Shown here: one piece after another, positions 49,702-59,524 of the stretch | Layout of the letters: the number at the start of each line of letters is the position of its first letter | Position numbering within the stretch: the stretch's first letter is position 1 | Origin: a virus | Reading direction: 5' to 3' (one strand) | Virus record (IMG/VR): IMGVR_UViG_3300007512_000009 | Span: 62,001-126,000 of that record | DNA: 64,000 nucleotides | Notes under the pieces: generated by a model | Told to the model about the DNA's origin: nothing | Databases searched by the model: none | Seen by the model: the letters and a program-made list of their open reading frames with translations, nothing else | Program-made: the position numbers and the translations under genes

Positions 49702-50786
49702 GCATGATTGTTGATAAAAAATTTATCAACTTAATTTCTATTGAACTTAGAAACTTCAAATGGAAAAAAGAATCTCAGGCACAGTGTTCATGTCCAATCT
49801 GTGGTGATAGTAAAAAAGATGCAAAAAAAGCGAGAGGTTATTTTTATCAGAAACATGGACGTTTTTTCTATAAGTGTTTTAACTGTGGATACTGGTCTAA
49901 CATATATAAATTTTTATCTCAAGTTTCCCCAGATTTATGTAAAGAGTATGGACTTGAATCTTTTAAGGGAAACATCAATAACAACCGATTGGTAAAAAAG
50001 AATAAAATTAATAGAAGAAATGATGGAGAAGAAATTGTGAAAGGACTGTTTGGTAAAAATCCCTCTAGTATTAAAAAGATAAGGGACGGATATAAAATTC
50101 TTGGTGATTTGGTAAAATTAAAAGACTTACCAAGCGACCATAATGCTGTAAAATTTGCTAATATGAGGTTAATCCCCAAAGAATATTGGGATTTGCTTTA
50201 CTATACTGAAGATTTTGGTAAATTTTCTAAGGGTCTAGACCCAGAAACTAATTACAGAGAATCAGAAGAAAGATTAGTTATTCCATTCTTTAATAGTAAA
50301 GGTGACGTAGTGGCAGCACAAGGTAGAGCATTGAGTATGTCTAGTGAGGTGAATGCTAGGAACACTCTTAAATATCTTACTGTAAAAGCGGATAAGAGTA
50401 TAGACAGGCTGTTTTATGGTCTTTGGAGATGCAATCCTGAAAAGAGAGTTTATGTAGTAGAGGGGCCGATTGATAGTTTATTCATCAAGAATGCAATTGC
50501 AATGGTTGGTGCCAGTTCTATAAATAAACTTCCTGAAAGATTGCGTGATAAAGATGTAGTATTTGTGCTTGATAATGAACCAAGAAATGAACAGATTGTC
50601 AAATTCAATGAAGAACTCATTAAGCAAGGAAGACAAGTTTGCATCTGGCCTGAATCTTTAAAAGAAAAAGATATTAATGACATGTCGTACAGGATTTCGA
50701 CTCGTAAAATCCAAAAAATGATTGATGAGAACACATTTCGTGGTCTTGAAGCAACAATAAAACTTAATAAATGGAAGAGAATATGA
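49698..50786 (+). CDS. 61: DNA primase gp61
   Basis: A 362-residue primase. A zinc ribbon is at residues 30-63 (Cys30/32/35 and Cys60/63, in CPICGDSKKD and YKCFNCGYW). The catalytic Toprim part has RLVIPFFNSKGDVVAAQGRA, VYVVEGPIDSLFIKN and VVFVLDNEPRN. T4 gp61 is 342 residues. It makes primers together with gp41. Its stop overlaps the glutamine synthetase ATG (ATGA). Confidence 0.95.
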   Translation: MSMIVDKKFINLISIELRNFKWKKESQAQCSCPICGDSKKDAKKARGYFYQKHGRFFYKCFNCGYWSNIYKFLSQVSPDLCKEYGLESFKGNINNNRLVKKNKINRRNDGEEIVKGLFGKNPSSIKKIRDGYKILGDLVKLKDLPSDHNAVKFANMRLIPKEYWDLLYYTEDFGKFSKGLDPETNYRESEERLVIPFFNSKGDVVAAQGRALSMSSEVNARNTLKYLTVKADKSIDRLFYGLWRCNPEKRVYVVEGPIDSLFIKNAIAMVGASSINKLPERLRDKDVVFVLDNEPRNEQIVKFNEELIKQGRQVCIWPESLKEKDINDMSYRISTRKIQKMIDENTFRGLEATIKLNKWKRI

Positions 50787-51844
50787 ACAACTGTAAACTT
50801 GAATATTTGTGGTTAGACGGTTACAAAACACCCAACGTTAGAAGTAAAACTAAGTATTGTAATATAAACCCCTCTGCTGATGGTAGACTAACCTTAAACG
50901 ATGTTCCTGAATGGGGATTTGATGGGTCTAGTACGGAACAAGCAGTGGATAGTGATAGTGACTGTGTTTTAAAACCAGTATCAATCTATAATAACACCGT
51001 TGATAGTATAATAGGTAATAATTCATACATTATATTATGTGAAGTAATGAATTCTGATGGTACACCACACAAATCCAATACACGTGCTAAACTCCGAAAA
51101 CTAGAAAAGAAGTTTGACAACCAAAACTTTTGGTTCGGTATTGAACAAGAATACACTATAATAAACAACGCCAATAATAAACCCTACGGATGGCCCGAAA
51201 ATGGGTATCCACCACCACAAGGTAGATACTACTGTGGTGTAGGTGGTGATGTAGTCACAATGAGGGAGTTAGCACACGAACATGCGATGGCCTGTAATAC
51301 AGCAGGTATTCCTCTGTGTGGTACAAACGCTGAAGTAATGTTAGGTCAATGGGAGTACCAAATTGGTACTGCAGGAATCCTAGAAATATGCGACTATCTA
51401 TGGGTTGCTCGTTATATGTTGGAAGTTTTAGCAGAAACAAAAGATGTAAGTATTAGTTTAGACCCCAAACCTATTATGGGCGACTGGAATGGTTCAGGTG
51501 CACACATCAATTTCTCAACAGAAAGACTTCGTGAAGAAGGTGGAAAAAGATACATCACTGGTATTATAAAAAATTTGATGGACAAACATGAAGAACATAT
51601 TGAAGAATATGGTATTGGAAATGAAGATAGATTAACAGGAGAACATGAAACTCAACATATTGATGTTTTTTCTTCTGGTGATTCAGACAGAGGTGCATCT
51701 ATTCGTATCCCCCCAATTACTTCTAAAACATTGAAGGGATATCTTGAAGATAGAAGACCATCCGCAAATATGGACCCCTATCGTGCAGTAGCAAAATTGG
51801 TTGAAACAGTTGGTAATGTTAGTATGGTTGTTAATGCGTTATGA
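50783..51844 (+). CDS. Glutamine synthetase, type II-like
   Basis: A 353-residue glutamine synthetase: glutamate plus ammonia plus ATP gives glutamine. LEYLWLDGYKTPNVRSKTK at the N-terminus, VPEWGFDGSSTEQA, FWFGIEQEYTII, GIPLCGTNAEVMLGQWEYQI, GDWNGSGAHINFS and RGASIRIPP match the eukaryote-type GSII form, both in motif and in length (about 350 instead of about 470 for GSI). The Tyr adenylylation segment of bacterial GSI is absent, as expected for GSII, so host GlnE would not switch it off. ATG 50783 overlaps the primase stop and has GGAAGAG upstream. Confidence 0.95.
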   Translation: MNNCKLEYLWLDGYKTPNVRSKTKYCNINPSADGRLTLNDVPEWGFDGSSTEQAVDSDSDCVLKPVSIYNNTVDSIIGNNSYIILCEVMNSDGTPHKSNTRAKLRKLEKKFDNQNFWFGIEQEYTIINNANNKPYGWPENGYPPPQGRYYCGVGGDVVTMRELAHEHAMACNTAGIPLCGTNAEVMLGQWEYQIGTAGILEICDYLWVARYMLEVLAETKDVSISLDPKPIMGDWNGSGAHINFSTERLREEGGKRYITGIIKNLMDKHEEHIEEYGIGNEDRLTGEHETQHIDVFSSGDSDRGASIRIPPITSKTLKGYLEDRRPSANMDPYRAVAKLVETVGNVSMVVNAL

Positions 51845-52020: not shown

Positions 52021-52203
52021 ATGTACACTGAATGGTATTGGAGTGGGTTAATGGCAGTATTTGGAAGATTTTATAAATTAAAAATCGAATCCCACTCCCA
52101 GTGGGAAATTCAACAACATGCTAAAAATATAGGCAACATTTTTGGAAATGGAAATATCTTGCTAAGAGTGAAAAATAAAAATAAATATGGTCGTGTAGTT
52201 TAA
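52021..52203 (+). CDS. Small protein (60 aa) before nrdJ
   Basis: A 60-residue frame fitting the gap between the previous small gene and nrdJ. The stretch SQWEIQQHAKNIGNIFGNGN is followed by a basic end. The start could be 52021 or 52051 (ATG); neither has a strong ribosome site. No known family. Confidence 0.45.
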   Translation: MYTEWYWSGLMAVFGRFYKLKIESHSQWEIQQHAKNIGNIFGNGNILLRVKNKNKYGRVV

Positions 52204-52215
52204 AAAGGAATTTTT

Positions 52216-54156
52216 ATGTGTGAATATTTACCAACCGATTACCAGTCATTTATCCATAGAAGTAGATATGCTAGATGGATAGAAGACTTAGACAGAAGAG
52301 AAACTTGGGAAGAAACAGTTGATAGATATATAAATTTCTTTAAGGAACATCTTGGAAAAACCTTGGGTTATAAGATGAGTCCAAACGTGAAGAACGAAAT
52401 TAAAAACTCAATATTGAATCTAGAAATCATGCCTTCTATGCGTTCACTAATGACAGCAGGAGAGGCACTAAAGACGGATGCAGTATCAGGCTATAACTGT
52501 GCATACCTTGCTATTAATAGAGTACGAGCATTTGACGAAGTTCTTTATACTTTAATGTGCGGAACAGGCGTTGGTTTTAGTGTTGAACGTAACTATGTTA
52601 ACAAATTACCTACTATTGCTGAAGAGTTTGAGGATTCTGACACTACTATTGTTGTTAAAGATAGCAGAATAGGTTGGTGCAAAGCATACAAAGAACTTAT
52701 ATCATTGCTTATAACAGGTCAAATTCCAAAATGGGATATGACTAAAATAAGACCTTCTGGTTCTAGACTTAAGACATTCGGTGGTAGGTCTTCTGGACCA
52801 GAGAGTTTAGAAGAATTATTCAATTTTACAATTGCAACATTTAGAAAAGCAAATGGACGAAAATTAACTACAATTGAATGTCATGACTTAGTATGTAAAA
52901 TTGCAGAGATTGTAGTTGTTGGTGGTGTTCGTCGTAGTGCATTGTTATCTTTATCTTCATTAACTGATGAAAGAATGAGAGTAGCAAAAACTGGACAATG
53001 GTGGGCTATTGAACCACAACGTGCCTTATCAAACAATTCTGTTTGTTATAAAGAAAAACCAGAAATTGGTACGTTCATGGACGAATGGATTTCCCTTTAT
53101 AAGTCAAAATCTGGAGAGCGTGGTATCTTTAATAGAGAATCAGCAGAAAGAACAATTGAAAATATTGAAGGACAACGACGAGAACTAGGACATGATTGGG
53201 GATGTAATCCTTGTTCCGAAATCATACTTAGAGATAGAGAGTTCTGTAATCTTTCTGAGGTTGTGGTTAGAGAAGATGATACTGAAGAAACACTAATTAG
53301 GAAAGTTCAACTTGCTACAATTTTAGGAACATGGCAAGCAACACTAACAGACTTCCGCTATTTATCTAAAGAGTGGAAAAACAACTGTGAAGAAGAGAGA
53401 TTGCTTGGTGTATCAATGACTGGTATTATGGATTGTAAACTTACTAATGGTGATAAGAAAACAGTTGGTAAACTACCAGAGTTATTAGCAAATCTAAGAA
53501 AGACAGCAATCAAGACAAATAAAGAATGGTCTGACAGGTTGGGTGTTAACCAGTCTGTTGCAATTACTTGTGTTAAACCTAGTGGTACAGTGTCACAGTT
53601 AGTGGATTCTGCATCAGGAATTCATGCTCGTCATTCTGAGCATTACATTAGAACAGTACGTGCAAACACAAAAGACCCGCTATGTCAGTTTATGATAGAT
53701 GAAGGTTTTCCCCATGAACCTTGCCACATGAAACCAGACTCCACCATTGTTTTTTCATTCCCGATTAAATCTCCCAAAAACGCAATATTTAGAAAAGACA
53801 AAGATGCATTAGAGCAACTTGAATTATGGTTATTATATCAAAAGTATTGGTGCGAACACAAACCCAGTGTTACAATCACTGTTAAAGAACATGAATGGCT
53901 AAAAGTTGGTGCTTGGGTTTATAGTAATTTCAATAATATTTGTGGTATTTCATTTCTTCCTTATTCTGACCACAGTTACAAGCAAGCACCCTATCAAGAA
54001 TGTAATAAAAAAGAATTCAACAAACTTTGCAAACAAATGCCAAAGGATGTTAACTGGACAAAACTTAGTCATTATGAGCAGGAAGATAACACGGCAGGGT
54101 CACAAACGATGGCCTGCAGTGGTGGCTCTTGTGAGGTAGTTGATTTAACAAATTAA
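52216..54156 (+). CDS. nrdJ: B12-dependent class II ribonucleotide reductase, monomeric type
   Basis: A 646-residue enzyme converting ribonucleotides to deoxyribonucleotides with adenosylcobalamin. SGYNCAYLAINRVRAFDEVL, MCGTGVGFSVE, VVGGVRRSALLSLSSL and WGCNPCSEIIL (catalytic Cys region) fit the monomeric, Lactobacillus/cyanophage-type class II enzyme. The end MACSGGSCEVVDL holds the redox-active Cys pair. It needs no NrdB partner, and none is seen. The ribosome site is AAAAGGAA. The host must supply B12. Confidence 0.94.
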   Translation: MCEYLPTDYQSFIHRSRYARWIEDLDRRETWEETVDRYINFFKEHLGKTLGYKMSPNVKNEIKNSILNLEIMPSMRSLMTAGEALKTDAVSGYNCAYLAINRVRAFDEVLYTLMCGTGVGFSVERNYVNKLPTIAEEFEDSDTTIVVKDSRIGWCKAYKELISLLITGQIPKWDMTKIRPSGSRLKTFGGRSSGPESLEELFNFTIATFRKANGRKLTTIECHDLVCKIAEIVVVGGVRRSALLSLSSLTDERMRVAKTGQWWAIEPQRALSNNSVCYKEKPEIGTFMDEWISLYKSKSGERGIFNRESAERTIENIEGQRRELGHDWGCNPCSEIILRDREFCNLSEVVVREDDTEETLIRKVQLATILGTWQATLTDFRYLSKEWKNNCEEERLLGVSMTGIMDCKLTNGDKKTVGKLPELLANLRKTAIKTNKEWSDRLGVNQSVAITCVKPSGTVSQLVDSASGIHARHSEHYIRTVRANTKDPLCQFMIDEGFPHEPCHMKPDSTIVFSFPIKSPKNAIFRKDKDALEQLELWLLYQKYWCEHKPSVTITVKEHEWLKVGAWVYSNFNNICGISFLPYSDHSYKQAPYQECNKKEFNKLCKQMPKDVNWTKLSHYEQEDNTAGSQTMACSGGSCEVVDLTN

Positions 54157-54168: not shown

Positions 54169-54208
54169 TAAAGACTACCTGAAATCGGAGTTGATTTAGG
54201 GAGTCAAA

Positions 54209-54242
54209 GGTGCAATTACGCACCAACCTCTTTTGCCAGAGG
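54209..54242 (+). promoter_or_regulatory. Two tandem small hairpins in the leader of the membrane protein/porin genes
   Basis: GGTGC-aattac-GCACC (54209-54224) and CCTCT-tttgcc-AGAGG (54227-54242) are two adjacent 5-bp stems with six-base loops. No T-run follows, so they are not a normal terminator. They may form a leader structure for the two genes behind them. Confidence 0.4.
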
Positions 54243-54269
54243 AATAATTCTTTTAAAAGGAGAAATATA

Positions 54270-54443
54270 ATGGCTAAATGTACAGACAGTTGCGGAACAG
54301 ATGTCGTGACAAATGCGTTAGGTAAAATCGGTGTATGCCGTAGTATGCTAATCACATTAGCACTTCTTCCATTTGCGTGGAACGGTGTTACTTGGGTTGG
54401 TAGTGCAGTTCGTGAACTTTGGGAATTGATTCAAGGCGTTTAA
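54270..54443 (+). CDS. Small membrane protein upstream of porin
   Basis: A 57-residue protein with a strong AAAGGAGA site. Three Cys residues lie in the first 25 residues (MAKCTDSCGTDVV and GVCRS), then a hydrophobic segment SMLITLALLPFAWNGVTWVG that may cross or sit in the membrane. Unknown function. Co-transcription with the porin suggests a shared role in the envelope. Confidence 0.65.
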   Translation: MAKCTDSCGTDVVTNALGKIGVCRSMLITLALLPFAWNGVTWVGSAVRELWELIQGV

Positions 54444-54476
54444 TCGTCTTGAACCTAATAAAAAGGAGATACCATT

Positions 54477-55616
54477 ATGAATATCTCAAAAATTACAAAG
54501 TTCGGTATTGCTTCATTGCTTGCAGGGATTGCATGTGGTGCGGCAGGTGCTGACACAAACACAGAACTGCAAGAACGACTTGCACGTGCAGAAGCAAGGA
54601 TTGATGAACTCACTGCATCAAAAGATTCAAACTGGCTAAACGATACTCGTTCCGACGAAATTCGTTCATTAGTCCGTGATGTTCTTGCAGACGCAGACGC
54701 TCGCTCAAGCATGATTGGTAATGGTTCACCTGTTACCTTGAATGTTCATGGTTTTTTGCAAACTCGTTGGTCGTACAATGACATCAAAACAGATGGCGTT
54801 GATACTACTCACGGTTTCAATGTTCCACGAACACGACTTGAAGTTTCTGGTGACCTCTATGATTGGGGTTACATGGTAAGTGGTCAGTGGAATGATGGTG
54901 GAAACTTTACCCTAATGGATGCATATGCAGATTGGGGTAACTTCCGAGTTGGTCAATTCAAGAGTCCTTTTATGAAGGAAGTTTTGACCGCACAAACAGA
55001 TACACTCGCAACCGAGCGTTCTGTTATCTCAAATCAGTTCGGTCAAGGTCGTAGTCAAGGTATTCAATACGGATACGACACCTCATTCGGTGGCGTTAGT
55101 GTTGCATATACCGATGGATTTAATACTGCAAATGGTGCAGGAGTCCAAAATGGTTACGCACTTACTGGTCGTGTTGATTTCAGTCCTACTAATTGGTTGA
55201 GTGCTGGCGTTGCTGTTTCACACAACGACCTAGACACAACTGATTATAACACGTGGACTGCTGATGCAACATTTAGTGCAGGTGGATTTGATTTCACTGG
55301 TGCTTATGTAGCAACAATGGATGACACTAATGGCGATGATTGGGGTACAGTCTGGACAGCATCATATGATGTAACAGACAAAGCACAATTGTTCGGTCAA
55401 TATGAAGTTGGACACCTTGAAGGTGTTGCAACTGATTTGAAAATTGCCACATTTGGTGTTAATTATGCATTCAATAGCAATGTTAAATGGACAACCGACG
55501 TAGGTTATGCATTTGACAGCGTTGATGCAGGATGGAACTTGGGAACTAGTGGTTGGAATACAACCGCAAATGAAGGTGAAACCCTTATTCGCTCCCAACT
55601 CCAAGTTAAATTTTAA
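54477..55616 (+). CDS. Outer-membrane porin (phosphate-porin O/P-like)
   Basis: A 379-residue beta-barrel protein. Residues 1-25 are a signal peptide with cleavage after GAAGA; 28-44 form a short coiled coil (ELQERLARAEARIDELT); residues 53-80 (WLNDTRSDEIRSLVRDVL and following Ala/Asp) are a periplasmic helix that, from memory, resembles Planctomycetota porins. Then come alternating strands such as VNVHGFLQTR-type and RTRLEVSGDLYDWGYMVSG, with FRVGQFKSPFMKEVLT typical of OprO/OprP barrels. The end LQVKF has the terminal Phe needed for barrel assembly. GC content looks higher than in neighbouring genes. Ribosome site AAAGGAGAT and own terminator. Confidence 0.9.
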   Translation: MNISKITKFGIASLLAGIACGAAGADTNTELQERLARAEARIDELTASKDSNWLNDTRSDEIRSLVRDVLADADARSSMIGNGSPVTLNVHGFLQTRWSYNDIKTDGVDTTHGFNVPRTRLEVSGDLYDWGYMVSGQWNDGGNFTLMDAYADWGNFRVGQFKSPFMKEVLTAQTDTLATERSVISNQFGQGRSQGIQYGYDTSFGGVSVAYTDGFNTANGAGVQNGYALTGRVDFSPTNWLSAGVAVSHNDLDTTDYNTWTADATFSAGGFDFTGAYVATMDDTNGDDWGTVWTASYDVTDKAQLFGQYEVGHLEGVATDLKIATFGVNYAFNSNVKWTTDVGYAFDSVDAGWNLGTSGWNTTANEGETLIRSQLQVKF

Positions 55617-55645: not shown

Positions 55646-55679
55646 CAGCCCCTTAGATTCGTCTGGGGGCTGTTTTTTT
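55646..55679 (+). terminator. Intrinsic terminator after the porin gene
   Basis: Stem CAGCCCC with GGGGCTG (7 bp) and a 13-base loop, followed by seven T residues. The T-run merges with the TATACATA octamer of the next transcription unit, the same terminator-promoter arrangement as after gene 23. Confidence 0.9.
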
Positions 55680-55730: not shown

Positions 55731-56342
55731 ATGAAAGACCCTATGAAAGACCCTAACAAACAACTTAGAAATCTAACTGAAGCAGTTAATAACCTTTATG
55801 AGGCAATCCCTGTGCACCCAACAGCACCATATGGGCCGGGAAACGGTTATGAGTATGACCCAATACGAAAGCAATCAGTACCAATTGACCCAGACGACGG
55901 TGGGGATGGTAATGGTGATGGCGGTTGCCAAACTCAAGCATGTTGGGATGAAATACTTGCTGAAATTGACGAAATTGTTCGATTAGCCTGTGCTAACGGT
56001 GAAACAGCACAATGTCAACAAGCAAGGGCTGCACAGAAAGAGGCGTGGATGGCATATTATAATTGGTTATTGGGTGGTGGCGGTGGTGACCCACCTGCAC
56101 CCACGGATATTACAGAAACACCGATTATAACCCCCAATACCGTGGATTATTTACAAAATAATCCTATGCCTGAACGGCCGCATCTATATCACCCAACAGG
56201 TCGCAGACCAAAAGATTTGCAGTATAATGATGATTTAATGGATTGGTTTCAAGGTTGGGTTGATTCAATGTCTGAAGACCAGAAAGAAATGTTACTATGG
56301 ATTATTCCTAAATTAATCACATTACAAAATATAGCGCCATAA
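55731..56342 (+). CDS. Candidate internal head protein A (low complexity)
   Basis: A 203-residue protein of no known family. The N-terminus has KQLRNLTEAVNNLYEA, where LTE fits the head protease rule; the middle is rich in Pro, Gly and Asp (including a run of Gly/Asp with two Cys); the C-terminal helix pattern NDDLMDWFQGWVDSMSEDQK and following LLWIIPKLI aligns without gaps with those of the proteins at 9976 and 56379. Likely late expressed. A second ATG at 55743 is possible. Confidence 0.6.
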   Translation: MKDPMKDPNKQLRNLTEAVNNLYEAIPVHPTAPYGPGNGYEYDPIRKQSVPIDPDDGGDGNGDGGCQTQACWDEILAEIDEIVRLACANGETAQCQQARAAQKEAWMAYYNWLLGGGGGDPPAPTDITETPIITPNTVDYLQNNPMPERPHLYHPTGRRPKDLQYNDDLMDWFQGWVDSMSEDQKEMLLWIIPKLITLQNIAP

Positions 56343-56378: not shown

Positions 56379-57092
56379 ATGACTCTACAAAACAAAATTT
56401 ATCAACAACGAATCACTGAGGCACTAGGTGCAGGTGGCAATGCAGGAATTGGTCAACAAGAACCAAACTTTTTCCAACAGGCACCAAAACCTACTAGACC
56501 AAATTGGGAATTCCCAAGTCCTAGAGGGCCAGCAAATCAAACAAGAGGGTTGTATAGCGGTGGTGGTTTGTCTGGTATAGATGGACTACCAGTTACTGAA
56601 GAATGGCAAAACCAATGGGATAAATGGATAAACTCTGGTGCGGCAAGTGGTGCACCAATGCCTTGGCCACCACAATTCCAAGGTATGTTTGAAAACAATG
56701 ATGCCTTTGATTTCCACCCAGATAACCCACACTCTGGGAATATGTATTGGAATTCCGTTTTTAACTGGTTATTTGGGGAAACTGGTGGTGACAATGCATC
56801 ATGGGGTAATGGGGCATTACAACAGATGATTGATGCAGGATACACTGATTTAGGTCAATACGGTGGGAATATAGACTGGGATATTGTTCAAGACTTACTG
56901 GGCGGTTCAAATCTTTACAGTGCTTGGTTTGTTATGTTAATGTTTGGTGACCCAAACAATCCACAGTATGCAATACTCGAAAATTGGTTTAACCAAATGT
57001 TGAGCCAAAACCCAACGTATCATCATTTGCTGATGATATGGACATATCTGGGACAGCAATTGCCTGACTTATTCAACCCACAAAATATATAA
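56379..57092 (+). CDS. Candidate internal head protein B (Trp/Asn/Gly-rich)
   Basis: A 237-residue protein with at least twelve Trp and many Asn, Gly and Pro. The N-terminus MTLQNKIYQQRITEALGAGG looks like a T4 capsid-targeting sequence, with ITE as a cleavage site. The C-terminal helix pattern YAILENWFNQMLSQNPTYHH plus LLMIWTYLGQQ resembles the proteins at 9976 and 55731. No family recognised. Behind the late promoter at 55679. Confidence 0.62.
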   Translation: MTLQNKIYQQRITEALGAGGNAGIGQQEPNFFQQAPKPTRPNWEFPSPRGPANQTRGLYSGGGLSGIDGLPVTEEWQNQWDKWINSGAASGAPMPWPPQFQGMFENNDAFDFHPDNPHSGNMYWNSVFNWLFGETGGDNASWGNGALQQMIDAGYTDLGQYGGNIDWDIVQDLLGGSNLYSAWFVMLMFGDPNNPQYAILENWFNQMLSQNPTYHHLLMIWTYLGQQLPDLFNPQNI

Positions 57093-57176: not shown

Positions 57177-57205
57177 TTGACAGAAAACGTCAGGCATGGT
57201 ATAAT
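57177..57205 (+). promoter_or_regulatory. Early promoter, leaderless type, for the VWA gene
   Basis: Consensus TTGACA, 17-base spacer and TATAAT with extended TGG. The spacer lacks AGCC at the usual place. The ATG begins exactly 7 bases after the -10. Confidence 0.87.
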
Positions 57206-57211
57206 GGGTGT

Positions 57212-59524
57212 ATGAGAAAAACTACAAACACTATTAATACCGCCTCCAAAGATATTCTTGCTAAAGCCATGGCTATGGAAGGGATATCTGTCCAACATAG
57301 CGTAAACGCTGAAACAGCATACTTTGATACCAAAGCCCGTGTACTCGTTCTTCCAGTTTGGGAAGATATGACCAACGACATATATGATATGCTAGTTGGT
57401 CACGAAGTGTCACATGCACTTCATACACCTGCAGATGGTTGGTCTGACTTTGTTGGTAAAGACAAATTTTCAGGTATGCGTCATCAATTCTTAAATGTAG
57501 TTGAAGATGCTCGTATCGAACGATTAATCAAAGATAAATTTCCCGGCATTCGTCGCAACTTTTCAAATGCATACAAGCAATTTGCTGACCGTGACATGTT
57601 CGAAATTGAAGGTAAAGACCTTACAACACTACCACTTCTTGACCGATTGAACATCGAGTTCAAACTTGGTCTATATGGTCATGCTGATGTTGAATTCTCT
57701 GCAGACGAGCAACAATATGTTGAGCGAATGCGGGACACCAAGACAATGGAAGAAGTAGTCGCACTTTCAAGCGATTTGTTCGACCTATGGTTGGAACAAC
57801 AACCACTTGAACCAGACCAAGATGGTCAACACCAAATGGAAAGTGGTGCTGATAGCGAATCTGGTGATTCTGCTGAGTCTGGTTCAGAAGATTGGCAAGA
57901 TGCAATGAATCAACAAGACGAATCGCAATCACAATCTGGTGAAGGTGACGAATCAACCGATGCTTCTGGTGACAGCACTGAATCGGGTGACGAAGATGGT
58001 GAAGAAACTGGTGGTTCATCCAACACTGGTGAAGGTGAAGATTCTGGTGAGTCAATGGAAGATGATACTGATGATGGTGAAAGTGCTGACTCTGAGCAAA
58101 GCGATTCATCTGATGATGGTGCTGAACAAAATGACCTAGGTTATGATGACTACAGCAGTGACCCATGTGGTCAAACACAACGTGCCTTCGACCAAGGTGT
58201 TAAAGACATGCGTGACCAAGAGCAAACTAGAGAATACGAATATCACAAACTTCCTGAGTTTAAACTTGAAAACGTTATTATAGACTACCCTGAAATTGAC
58301 CGTCAATTTGTTGAATTCAATGCAGACAACGCTGATAGAATTTCACATTGTCGTGTTCAAGGGGAATGTCTTACCAAATGTGATGAATTCCTTCGCAAAT
58401 CACGACCAGTTGTAAACCATATGGTTCAACAATTCATGATGAAGCAAGCAGCCGAAGCAAACAAGAAGACTGAAATCTCAAAGACTGGTATTCTTGACAC
58501 AGTTTCAATGATTAATTACCGTTGGAGTGAAGATATCTTCGTAAAGAATGAAACTCATCCAGACGGTAAAAGTCACGGACTAGTAATGTTCCTTGATTGG
58601 TCTGGTTCAATGTCTAACATCCTTGAAGATACAGTCGAGCAAATGCTAGTTCTTACTGAATTCTGCAACAAGATGCAAATTCCGTTTGAAGTCTACGCAT
58701 TTTCATCATCATATAGTAGCAGAAATGAAGACAAACCACAACCACAATATGTTGCGAGTGATGACGATTCAGTTCTTAGACCTCACCATTTCAACCTACT
58801 CAACTTCCTCTCAAGCAGAATGAACAAGCGAGAGTACAAGCAAGCAGTACACAACCTATGGTTGTTGGGTGCATCAAACGCTTACAATAGTACATACAGG
58901 TACGTTAGAACCCCTCGCCAATTCTCCACTGGTTGCACACCTTTAAACGAAGCAATCATTGCAGGATTGGAAATCATCCCTGCATTCCAACGACAAAATG
59001 ACATTCAAATCGTAAATACAGTTGTCCTTTCAGACGGTGACGGTCACTCAATGGGTGCATACGGTTACTGTAGTGGTAAATCTTTCATTACTGAACCAAA
59101 TACTCGAAAAAACATTGAAATTAAAAATAACCACGGTAGGTCTGAAACAGCCGCATACCTTCAAATTTTGAAGAGTCAAACTGGTTGCAACATCATCGGA
59201 ATTAAATTGTATGATGGTCGAAGAATTGACAACATGCGATACCGATACTTCATCACTGACGGTGTTGTGGATGAAAAAGCAATGAACAAAGCAGCCGGAC
59301 TATGGAAGACACAAAACTTCTTTAGCATTAAAGGTGAAAATGCAGAAGGTTGTGACGAGTTGTTCGTAGTACAAGGTAGTCTTAAAGTTGAAACAGATGT
59401 CCTTGCTAAACTTGATGAAGATGCAAGTCTTGCAAAAGTACGCAACGCATTCGTTAAAGGTAACAGCACGAAGAAATCCTCACGAGTTATCGCAACTAAA
59501 CTGATTGACCTAATCGCAGTATAA
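57212..59524 (+). CDS. VWA-domain protein with HExxH metalloprotease-like N-part
   Basis: A 770-residue protein. The N-terminal domain has GHEVSHALHTPADGW (HExxH at 64-68) and VEDARIERLIKDKFPGIRRN, resembling CobT-type/peptidase proteins of T4-like marine phages. Residues about 190-320 are a Ser/Asp/Glu/Gly-rich linker. The C-terminal VWA domain has the MIDAS motif LDWSGSMSN (Asp462-Ser466) and VLSDGDGHSMG. Such proteins usually work with a MoxR/CobS-like AAA ATPase, which would be outside this window. Cobalt chelation is not supported; the true substrate is unknown. Predicted leaderless mRNA. Confidence 0.8.
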   Translation: MRKTTNTINTASKDILAKAMAMEGISVQHSVNAETAYFDTKARVLVLPVWEDMTNDIYDMLVGHEVSHALHTPADGWSDFVGKDKFSGMRHQFLNVVEDARIERLIKDKFPGIRRNFSNAYKQFADRDMFEIEGKDLTTLPLLDRLNIEFKLGLYGHADVEFSADEQQYVERMRDTKTMEEVVALSSDLFDLWLEQQPLEPDQDGQHQMESGADSESGDSAESGSEDWQDAMNQQDESQSQSGEGDESTDASGDSTESGDEDGEETGGSSNTGEGEDSGESMEDDTDDGESADSEQSDSSDDGAEQNDLGYDDYSSDPCGQTQRAFDQGVKDMRDQEQTREYEYHKLPEFKLENVIIDYPEIDRQFVEFNADNADRISHCRVQGECLTKCDEFLRKSRPVVNHMVQQFMMKQAAEANKKTEISKTGILDTVSMINYRWSEDIFVKNETHPDGKSHGLVMFLDWSGSMSNILEDTVEQMLVLTEFCNKMQIPFEVYAFSSSYSSRNEDKPQPQYVASDDDSVLRPHHFNLLNFLSSRMNKREYKQAVHNLWLLGASNAYNSTYRYVRTPRQFSTGCTPLNEAIIAGLEIIPAFQRQNDIQIVNTVVLSDGDGHSMGAYGYCSGKSFITEPNTRKNIEIKNNHGRSETAAYLQILKSQTGCNIIGIKLYDGRRIDNMRYRYFITDGVVDEKAMNKAAGLWKTQNFFSIKGENAEGCDELFVVQGSLKVETDVLAKLDEDASLAKVRNAFVKGNSTKKSSRVIATKLIDLIAV

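Follow-up and report, generated by a model that had tools for sequence, protein, structure and literature searches.

Why would a T4-like virus encode a full-size outer-membrane porin, is the gene truly a part of the viral genome, and what could it contribute to infection? These questions are raised by a gene at 54477..55616 (+ strand) of a 64,000-nucleotide stretch of DNA (hereafter the window, to which all coordinates refer), representing bases 62001-126000 of the 126,210-base IMG/VR virus record IMGVR_UViG_3300007512_000009.

The window contains the T4-like genes gp17, gp18, gp19, gp20, gp21, gp23, gp43, uvsX, gp41 and gp61, several of these T4-type names being assigned from gene order and inspection. 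The T4-like character of the genome is evident from its gp23 capsid protein (PF07068, E=2e-129) and from PHROG matches of the terminase (gp17) and the DNA polymerase (gp43). Among the matches listed, no deposited phage has a major capsid protein more than 54% identical to that of this genome, and the lineage is therefore one without a close isolate. The porin stands not in the late region but at the end of the gene order gp43-uvsX-gp41-gp61-glnA-RNR-sm57-porin, a replication and nucleotide-metabolism cluster that includes a glutamine synthetase gene (glnA; 50771..51844, + strand; Pfam Gln-synt_C, E=9e-16) and a ribonucleotide reductase gene (RNR; 52216..54156, + strand; phrog_367, E=1e-187), the latter being by synteny the usual upstream neighbour of the sm57-porin pair. 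Along with RNR and glutamine synthetase, the same genome encodes the nucleotide and nitrogen genes PurB and IMPDH, and relatives encode ThyX. Between glnA and RNR, only 60 aa of a ThyX (Thy1) gene remain (52021-52203), at a site where related phages have a full ThyX of ~230 aa (e.g., L012:6939-7646). Among deposited phages, the glutamine synthetase is best matched by huge uncultured ones (46-50% identity).

The porin protein and its viral family

The gene is an intact ORF of 379 aa with an ATG start, preceded by a ribosome binding site (AAGGAG, 54463-54468). Its product begins with a putative signal peptide of about residues 1-25 (54477..54551, + strand), recognized by a basic and then hydrophobic N-terminus ending in AAGAD, with the cleavage site placed by inspection. 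Residues 53-77 (54633..54707, + strand) are predicted to form the N-terminal helix of the mature porin, modeled at low confidence, that carries a motif common to planctomycete porins. This is followed by a predicted 16-strand barrel at residues 89-379 (54741..55613, + strand), delineated from the AlphaFold2 model and Foldseek matches, and the protein terminates in RSQLQVKF with a terminal Phe. Pfam Porin_4 (PF13609) was matched with E=2.3e-9 and 37.9 bits against a gathering cut-off of 27, while PHROGs and NCBIfam yielded nothing meaningful and the GenBank phages contained no match to this protein. The AlphaFold2 model, moderately confident at a pLDDT of 73, places 16 strands within residues 89-378; Foldseek matched it to Omp32, OmpT/OmpU, chitoporin, BpsOmp38 and other 16-strand porins with TM of 0.54-0.71. 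The predicted model and the sequence together present the hallmarks of the Gram-negative porin superfamily, namely a 16-strand barrel, a long loop past strand 5 and a C-terminal Phe. The description of the gene in an earlier note, made from the sequence, as a complete porin with signal peptide, barrel and terminal Phe is thus borne out.

The long loop that connects strand 5 to strand 6 (residues 163-191; 54963..55049, + strand) is, from its position in the model, the likely constriction loop L3 and may fold inward into the barrel. Its 29 residues are constant in length across the viral porins, with a mean column identity of 76%. If the model follows the usual topology of porins, the putative surface loops L1, L2, L4, L5, L6 and L7 would comprise 3-12 residues each, with L4 the best conserved element of all.

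Relatives of the porin are encoded by 70 IMG/VR loci on viral contigs, with identities of 33-100%. An alignment of 35 divergent viral porins retains 40 invariant columns, and each of five long related records encodes one porin. The dN/dS among ten viral copies is ~0.16-0.31, and the porin is therefore kept by purifying selection. The window holds a true phage gene for a porin, maintained by selection.

The sm57-porin cassette, its leader and its timing

Directly upstream of the porin lies sm57 (54270..54443, + strand), a conserved 57-aa protein that is moderately hydrophobic (hydropathy maximum of 1.52 over 19 residues) and possibly membrane-associated. Almost every viral locus of sufficient length has it next to the porin: both genes occur in 123 loci, a count that includes several extracts of the same contigs, with sm57 just upstream in 111 at a median gap of 31 nt and the reverse order porin-sm57 in about ten. 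When loci were sampled by gp61 instead, 15 of the 19 with enough downstream sequence carry both genes after RNR and 4/19 carry neither there; one of these four (L134) belongs to the same contig as L027, which has the cassette elsewhere. sm57 and the porin thus form a cassette of two genes, which a marine T4-like lineage carries close to its replication and nucleotide genes.

A single scan with sm57 itself retrieved 191 viral relatives, of which 80 were kept; it was not found in GenBank phages. Since sm57 also occurs without this porin (24 loci), it is probably a membrane-associated helper that has its own role. In the related phages L218, L227, L234, L236, L238 and L246, the gene after sm57 encodes another barrel-like protein, of 257-279 aa, that starts with a leader and ends in Phe; no significant Pfam or PHROG match was obtained for it, and the one structure model made was of too low confidence to use (pLDDT 40). 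In another group of loci (L225, L232, L235, L240, L247 and L251-L253), the sm57 homologues lie between lipoprotein-like and PD-(D/E)XK exonuclease-like genes, and the other genes of these loci do not match the window phage.

Between RNR and sm57 lies a putative structured mRNA leader (54181..54269, + strand), consisting of a row of three hairpins and then the ribosome binding site AAGGAG (54257-54262). Across 26 leaders, compensatory changes were observed in 12 of the 20 proposed pairs, and 92.7% of cells were paired as compared with 34-40% in slid controls, a figure favoured by the structure having been drawn from the consensus. Bases in the final hairpin loop complement the start region of sm57, as AGCCA/UGGCU in many loci and, where the sm57 start differs, as AGUCA/UGACU, AGGC/GCCU, GCUCA/UGAGC or CUUAGA/UCUAAG. 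In the window the match comprises 4 bases, the anti-start GCCA at 54235..54238 (+ strand) being predicted to pair with UGGC at 54271-54274 in the start codon region. This match across 41 distinct loci falls when leaders are swapped, and 0/2000 permutations reach the observed value, which is no strict probability as the loci are related. Comparison of the loci thus establishes a leader that has covarying pairs and also pairs with the sm57 start region, of which a start-site pseudoknot that would gate translation is the natural reading. A similar pairing was not seen over 54 genes of the window, which sets aside a genome-wide trait. No Rfam family reaches its gathering threshold for the leader, the best being freshwater-2 with 23 bits against 49.9; assignment to freshwater-2 or preQ1-II was rejected, the below-threshold signal coming mainly from the ribosome binding site.

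A sigma-70-like site (TTGACA-N16/17-TATAAT) with at least 11 of 12 matches is present in 31 of 40 distinct upstream regions of the cassette, where 0.14 would be expected; the window's own upstream region has no such site with at least 10 matches. The T4 late promoter TATAAATA occurs 7 times in the window against 8.3 expected, and none of these stands beside the cassette. Past the porin, a pattern scan detected a terminator-like hairpin followed by a T run (55650..55669, + strand). The sigma-70 promoters of the relatives and the position in the replication cluster therefore favour early expression driven by the host polymerase over late expression, and the same two observations speak against the earlier placement of the gene in the late part of a myovirus.

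Cellular relatives and known phage porins

Sampled genomes from three phyla were searched with a profile built on the viral porins. The profile matched 156 of 392 genomes of Planctomycetota, with a best E of 1.4e-74 over the full length, 21 of 198 genomes of Bacteroidota (best E 3e-14, partial) and 74 of 189 genomes of the phylum of a 'Deltaproteobacteria' MAG (best E 1.9e-24, partial). The best planctomycete porin, L083, is 36% identical over 408 aa and has the N-terminal helix motif of the window porin (in L083, AAEIRSLVQDVLADADTR), in agreement with the likeness to planctomycete porins that the earlier note had proposed for this helix. In a tree of 69 proteins, for which no root was inferred, the viral porins group together as a single clade (SH-aLRT 98), which in turn is united with 20 planctomycete porins (99), and the other phyla together with one planctomycete protein (L072) fall outside the combined viral and planctomycete group. 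Profile, identity and tree thus support Planctomycetota porins as clearly the nearest cellular relatives among the three phyla sampled, as the earlier note had anticipated.

The likeness to the planctomycete Porin_O_P-type porins such as L083, which take the sister side in the tree, extends from the helix motif to a C-terminus of the RTQLQ-x-x-F type. The planctomycete proteins differ in being cellular and in having barrels of 325-388 aa as compared with a near-constant 287-296 aa in the viral clade. They differ also in the partner gene: sm57 was not found in 384 planctomycete genomes, the 29 matches at E<=0.1 being about chance level.

Other candidate indicators of the host were set aside. 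The best matches of glnA are equally distant in Planctomycetota (53%), Bacteroidota (53%) and the G003 phylum (53-54%) and carry no host signal. A T4-like contig of 18.8 kb in a planctomycete species genome (G189:C205, L259) is pelagimyophage-like and probably misbinned, its gp23 being 80% identical to that of Pelagibacter phage Mosig. Neither the window nor bases 1-62500 of the record yielded any tRNA gene, and a phrase search of the literature on planctomycete phages returned nothing. A broader proposal can be put forward only tentatively and, taken as a whole, is rather unlikely: an uncultured but widespread marine T4-like lineage would infect Planctomycetota and, among its first acts, would make a loop-trimmed porin of the host type and a small membrane protein peculiar to the phage, under an RNA element that pairs with the start codon and matches no Rfam family, a lytic phage thereby rebuilding the permeability or the identity of the outer membrane of its host. 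If true, remodelling of the outer membrane by a full-size porin would be standard in a marine T4-like lineage, as in the 15/19 gp61-sampled loci, and not an oddity of lambdoid phages, and the porin would provide a testable lead to the host of uncultured phages. Two further objects emerge alongside, an orphan small-protein family and a covarying mRNA leader.

The earlier note had regarded a porin of this size as unusual, which holds for a T4-like phage and not for phages at large, as full-size phage porins are known from GenBank phages with OmpC-like porins, from marine viral contigs (PMC8115048) and from BFVD entries. An OmpC query of the GenBank phages returned 42 records with OmpC-like porins, including lc of PA-2 (J02580), in the same collection in which the window porin has no match; among the matches listed, the Lc-type porins are 64-66% identical to E. 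coli OmpC. The Lc/NmpC porins of lambdoid phages are likewise phage-coded full-size outer-membrane porins, but they are OmpC relatives in Escherichia, Salmonella and enterobacterial phages, whereas the present family is not OmpC-like, resides in T4-like phages and is accompanied by sm57 and a structured leader. The one relevant precedent that searches of the phage-porin literature found is viral ompL of oxygen-depleted ocean viruses, likewise a porin gene on marine viral contigs with a predicted beta-barrel (PMC8115048). There, ompL lies behind glnK-amtB and is ascribed to Bacteroidetes, with no sm57 mentioned in the text consulted. The virus-labelled BFVD models A0A8S5S2G8, A0A6J5L4P1 and A0A6J5LP82 are also full-size porin folds but, with 13-16% identity, belong to another family. 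As far as tested, the porin family is new, as are its affinity to planctomycete porins, its almost fixed position in one T4-like lineage, its partner sm57 and the RNA leader.

Possible roles during infection

The observations suggest that these marine T4-like viruses rebuild the outer membrane of their host early in infection. The most likely reading, although we hold it at somewhat below even confidence, is that of a working general porin with short loops, through which small-solute entry would be kept up or enhanced during takeover. Host RNA polymerase would transcribe the cassette early from the consensus sigma-70 promoter present in most relatives, and the leader would gate translation. 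With less certainty, the host machinery may then export the porin and insert it as a short-loop general channel that may maintain or increase small-solute entry while the phage takes over the cell, and the solutes could feed the phage nucleotide and nitrogen genes (RNR, ThyX in relatives, glutamine synthetase, PurB and IMPDH), with sm57 probably assisting at a membrane. In favour of this reading are the porin identity, the purifying selection, the conservation of the pore-side features (loop L3 and strands, with L4 as the most conserved loop) on barrels of near-constant length, the planctomycete affinity, the linkage in a cassette, the covariation of the leader, the sigma-70 promoters of the relatives and the nucleotide and nitrogen genes that the genome also carries. 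Against it stand the window copy without a promoter of 10 or more matches, the 24 loci with sm57 but without this porin, the moderate confidence of the model and an origin judged from three phyla.

Superinfection exclusion is known for phage-coded envelope proteins, by Lc of phage PA-2 on the outer side and by Imm of T4 on the inner side. By analogy, the compact short-loop porin could replace or dilute host porins that serve as phage receptors, with sm57 acting at the inner membrane. Masking or replacement of the phage receptor, which the earlier note had also put forward, may take place. This main rival to the general-porin reading is possible but on the whole unlikely. The occurrence of Lc-type porins in 42 GenBank phages agrees with it, as do the short surface loops on barrels trimmed relative to planctomycete porins, the early promoters and the different barrel-like protein that follows sm57 in some related phages, a difference compatible with an arms race. 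However, host porins inserted before infection would persist through the lytic cycle, and L4 is the most conserved element instead of being diversified.

Early over-production of a barrel and a small membrane protein could otherwise weaken the envelope or drive vesicles, for egress or as decoys. The moderate hydrophobicity of sm57 and its adjacency to a lipoprotein-like gene in one group of loci would suit such a perturbation, yet the replication-cluster position and the early-type promoters do not fit egress and the pore region is conserved, which renders it improbable.

The leading suggestion of the earlier note, an OprP-like phosphate-selective channel raising phosphate uptake, now appears very improbable. 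Porin_O_P (PF07396, OprO/OprP) is matched by 11 of 35 viral relatives and by all 8 planctomycete relatives tested, and a fair case can accordingly be made for a putative OprO/OprP family link of the window porin by transitivity; to this extent the proposed OprO/OprP likeness stands, while the window protein itself is a Porin_4 match with no match to PF07396. Its barrel has a net charge of -19 with 15 Lys+Arg in 291 residues, and net acidity extends to each of the 35 viral barrels (-10 to -28), so that the basic, arginine-rich pore of the OprP/OprO type is not indicated by charge as reckoned over the whole barrel. OprP/OprO are also absent from the 50 best Foldseek folds of the model.

Finally, an assembly chimera or a recent stray bacterial gene, to which a GC of ~0.41 around 54-58 kb against ~0.35 nearby could point, can practically be discounted because the 70 viral contigs encode relatives with the same neighbours, the arrangement recurring in independent contigs at 33-100% identity (including L002, whose porin is 100% identical), because purifying selection acts within the viral clade, and because only three weak relatives of the porin turned up when 84,980 species genomes were scanned by pattern.

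Directly past the porin, two Gly/Pro/Asn-rich proteins are encoded at 55731-56342 and 56379-57092; neither has a PHROG match, and the former has one weak Pfam match below the cut-off while the latter has none. Further on, a perfect sigma-70 consensus promoter (TTGACA-17-TATAAT) is situated at 57177-57205, just 5' of the gene at 57212 for a 770-aa phrog_459 'peptidase'.
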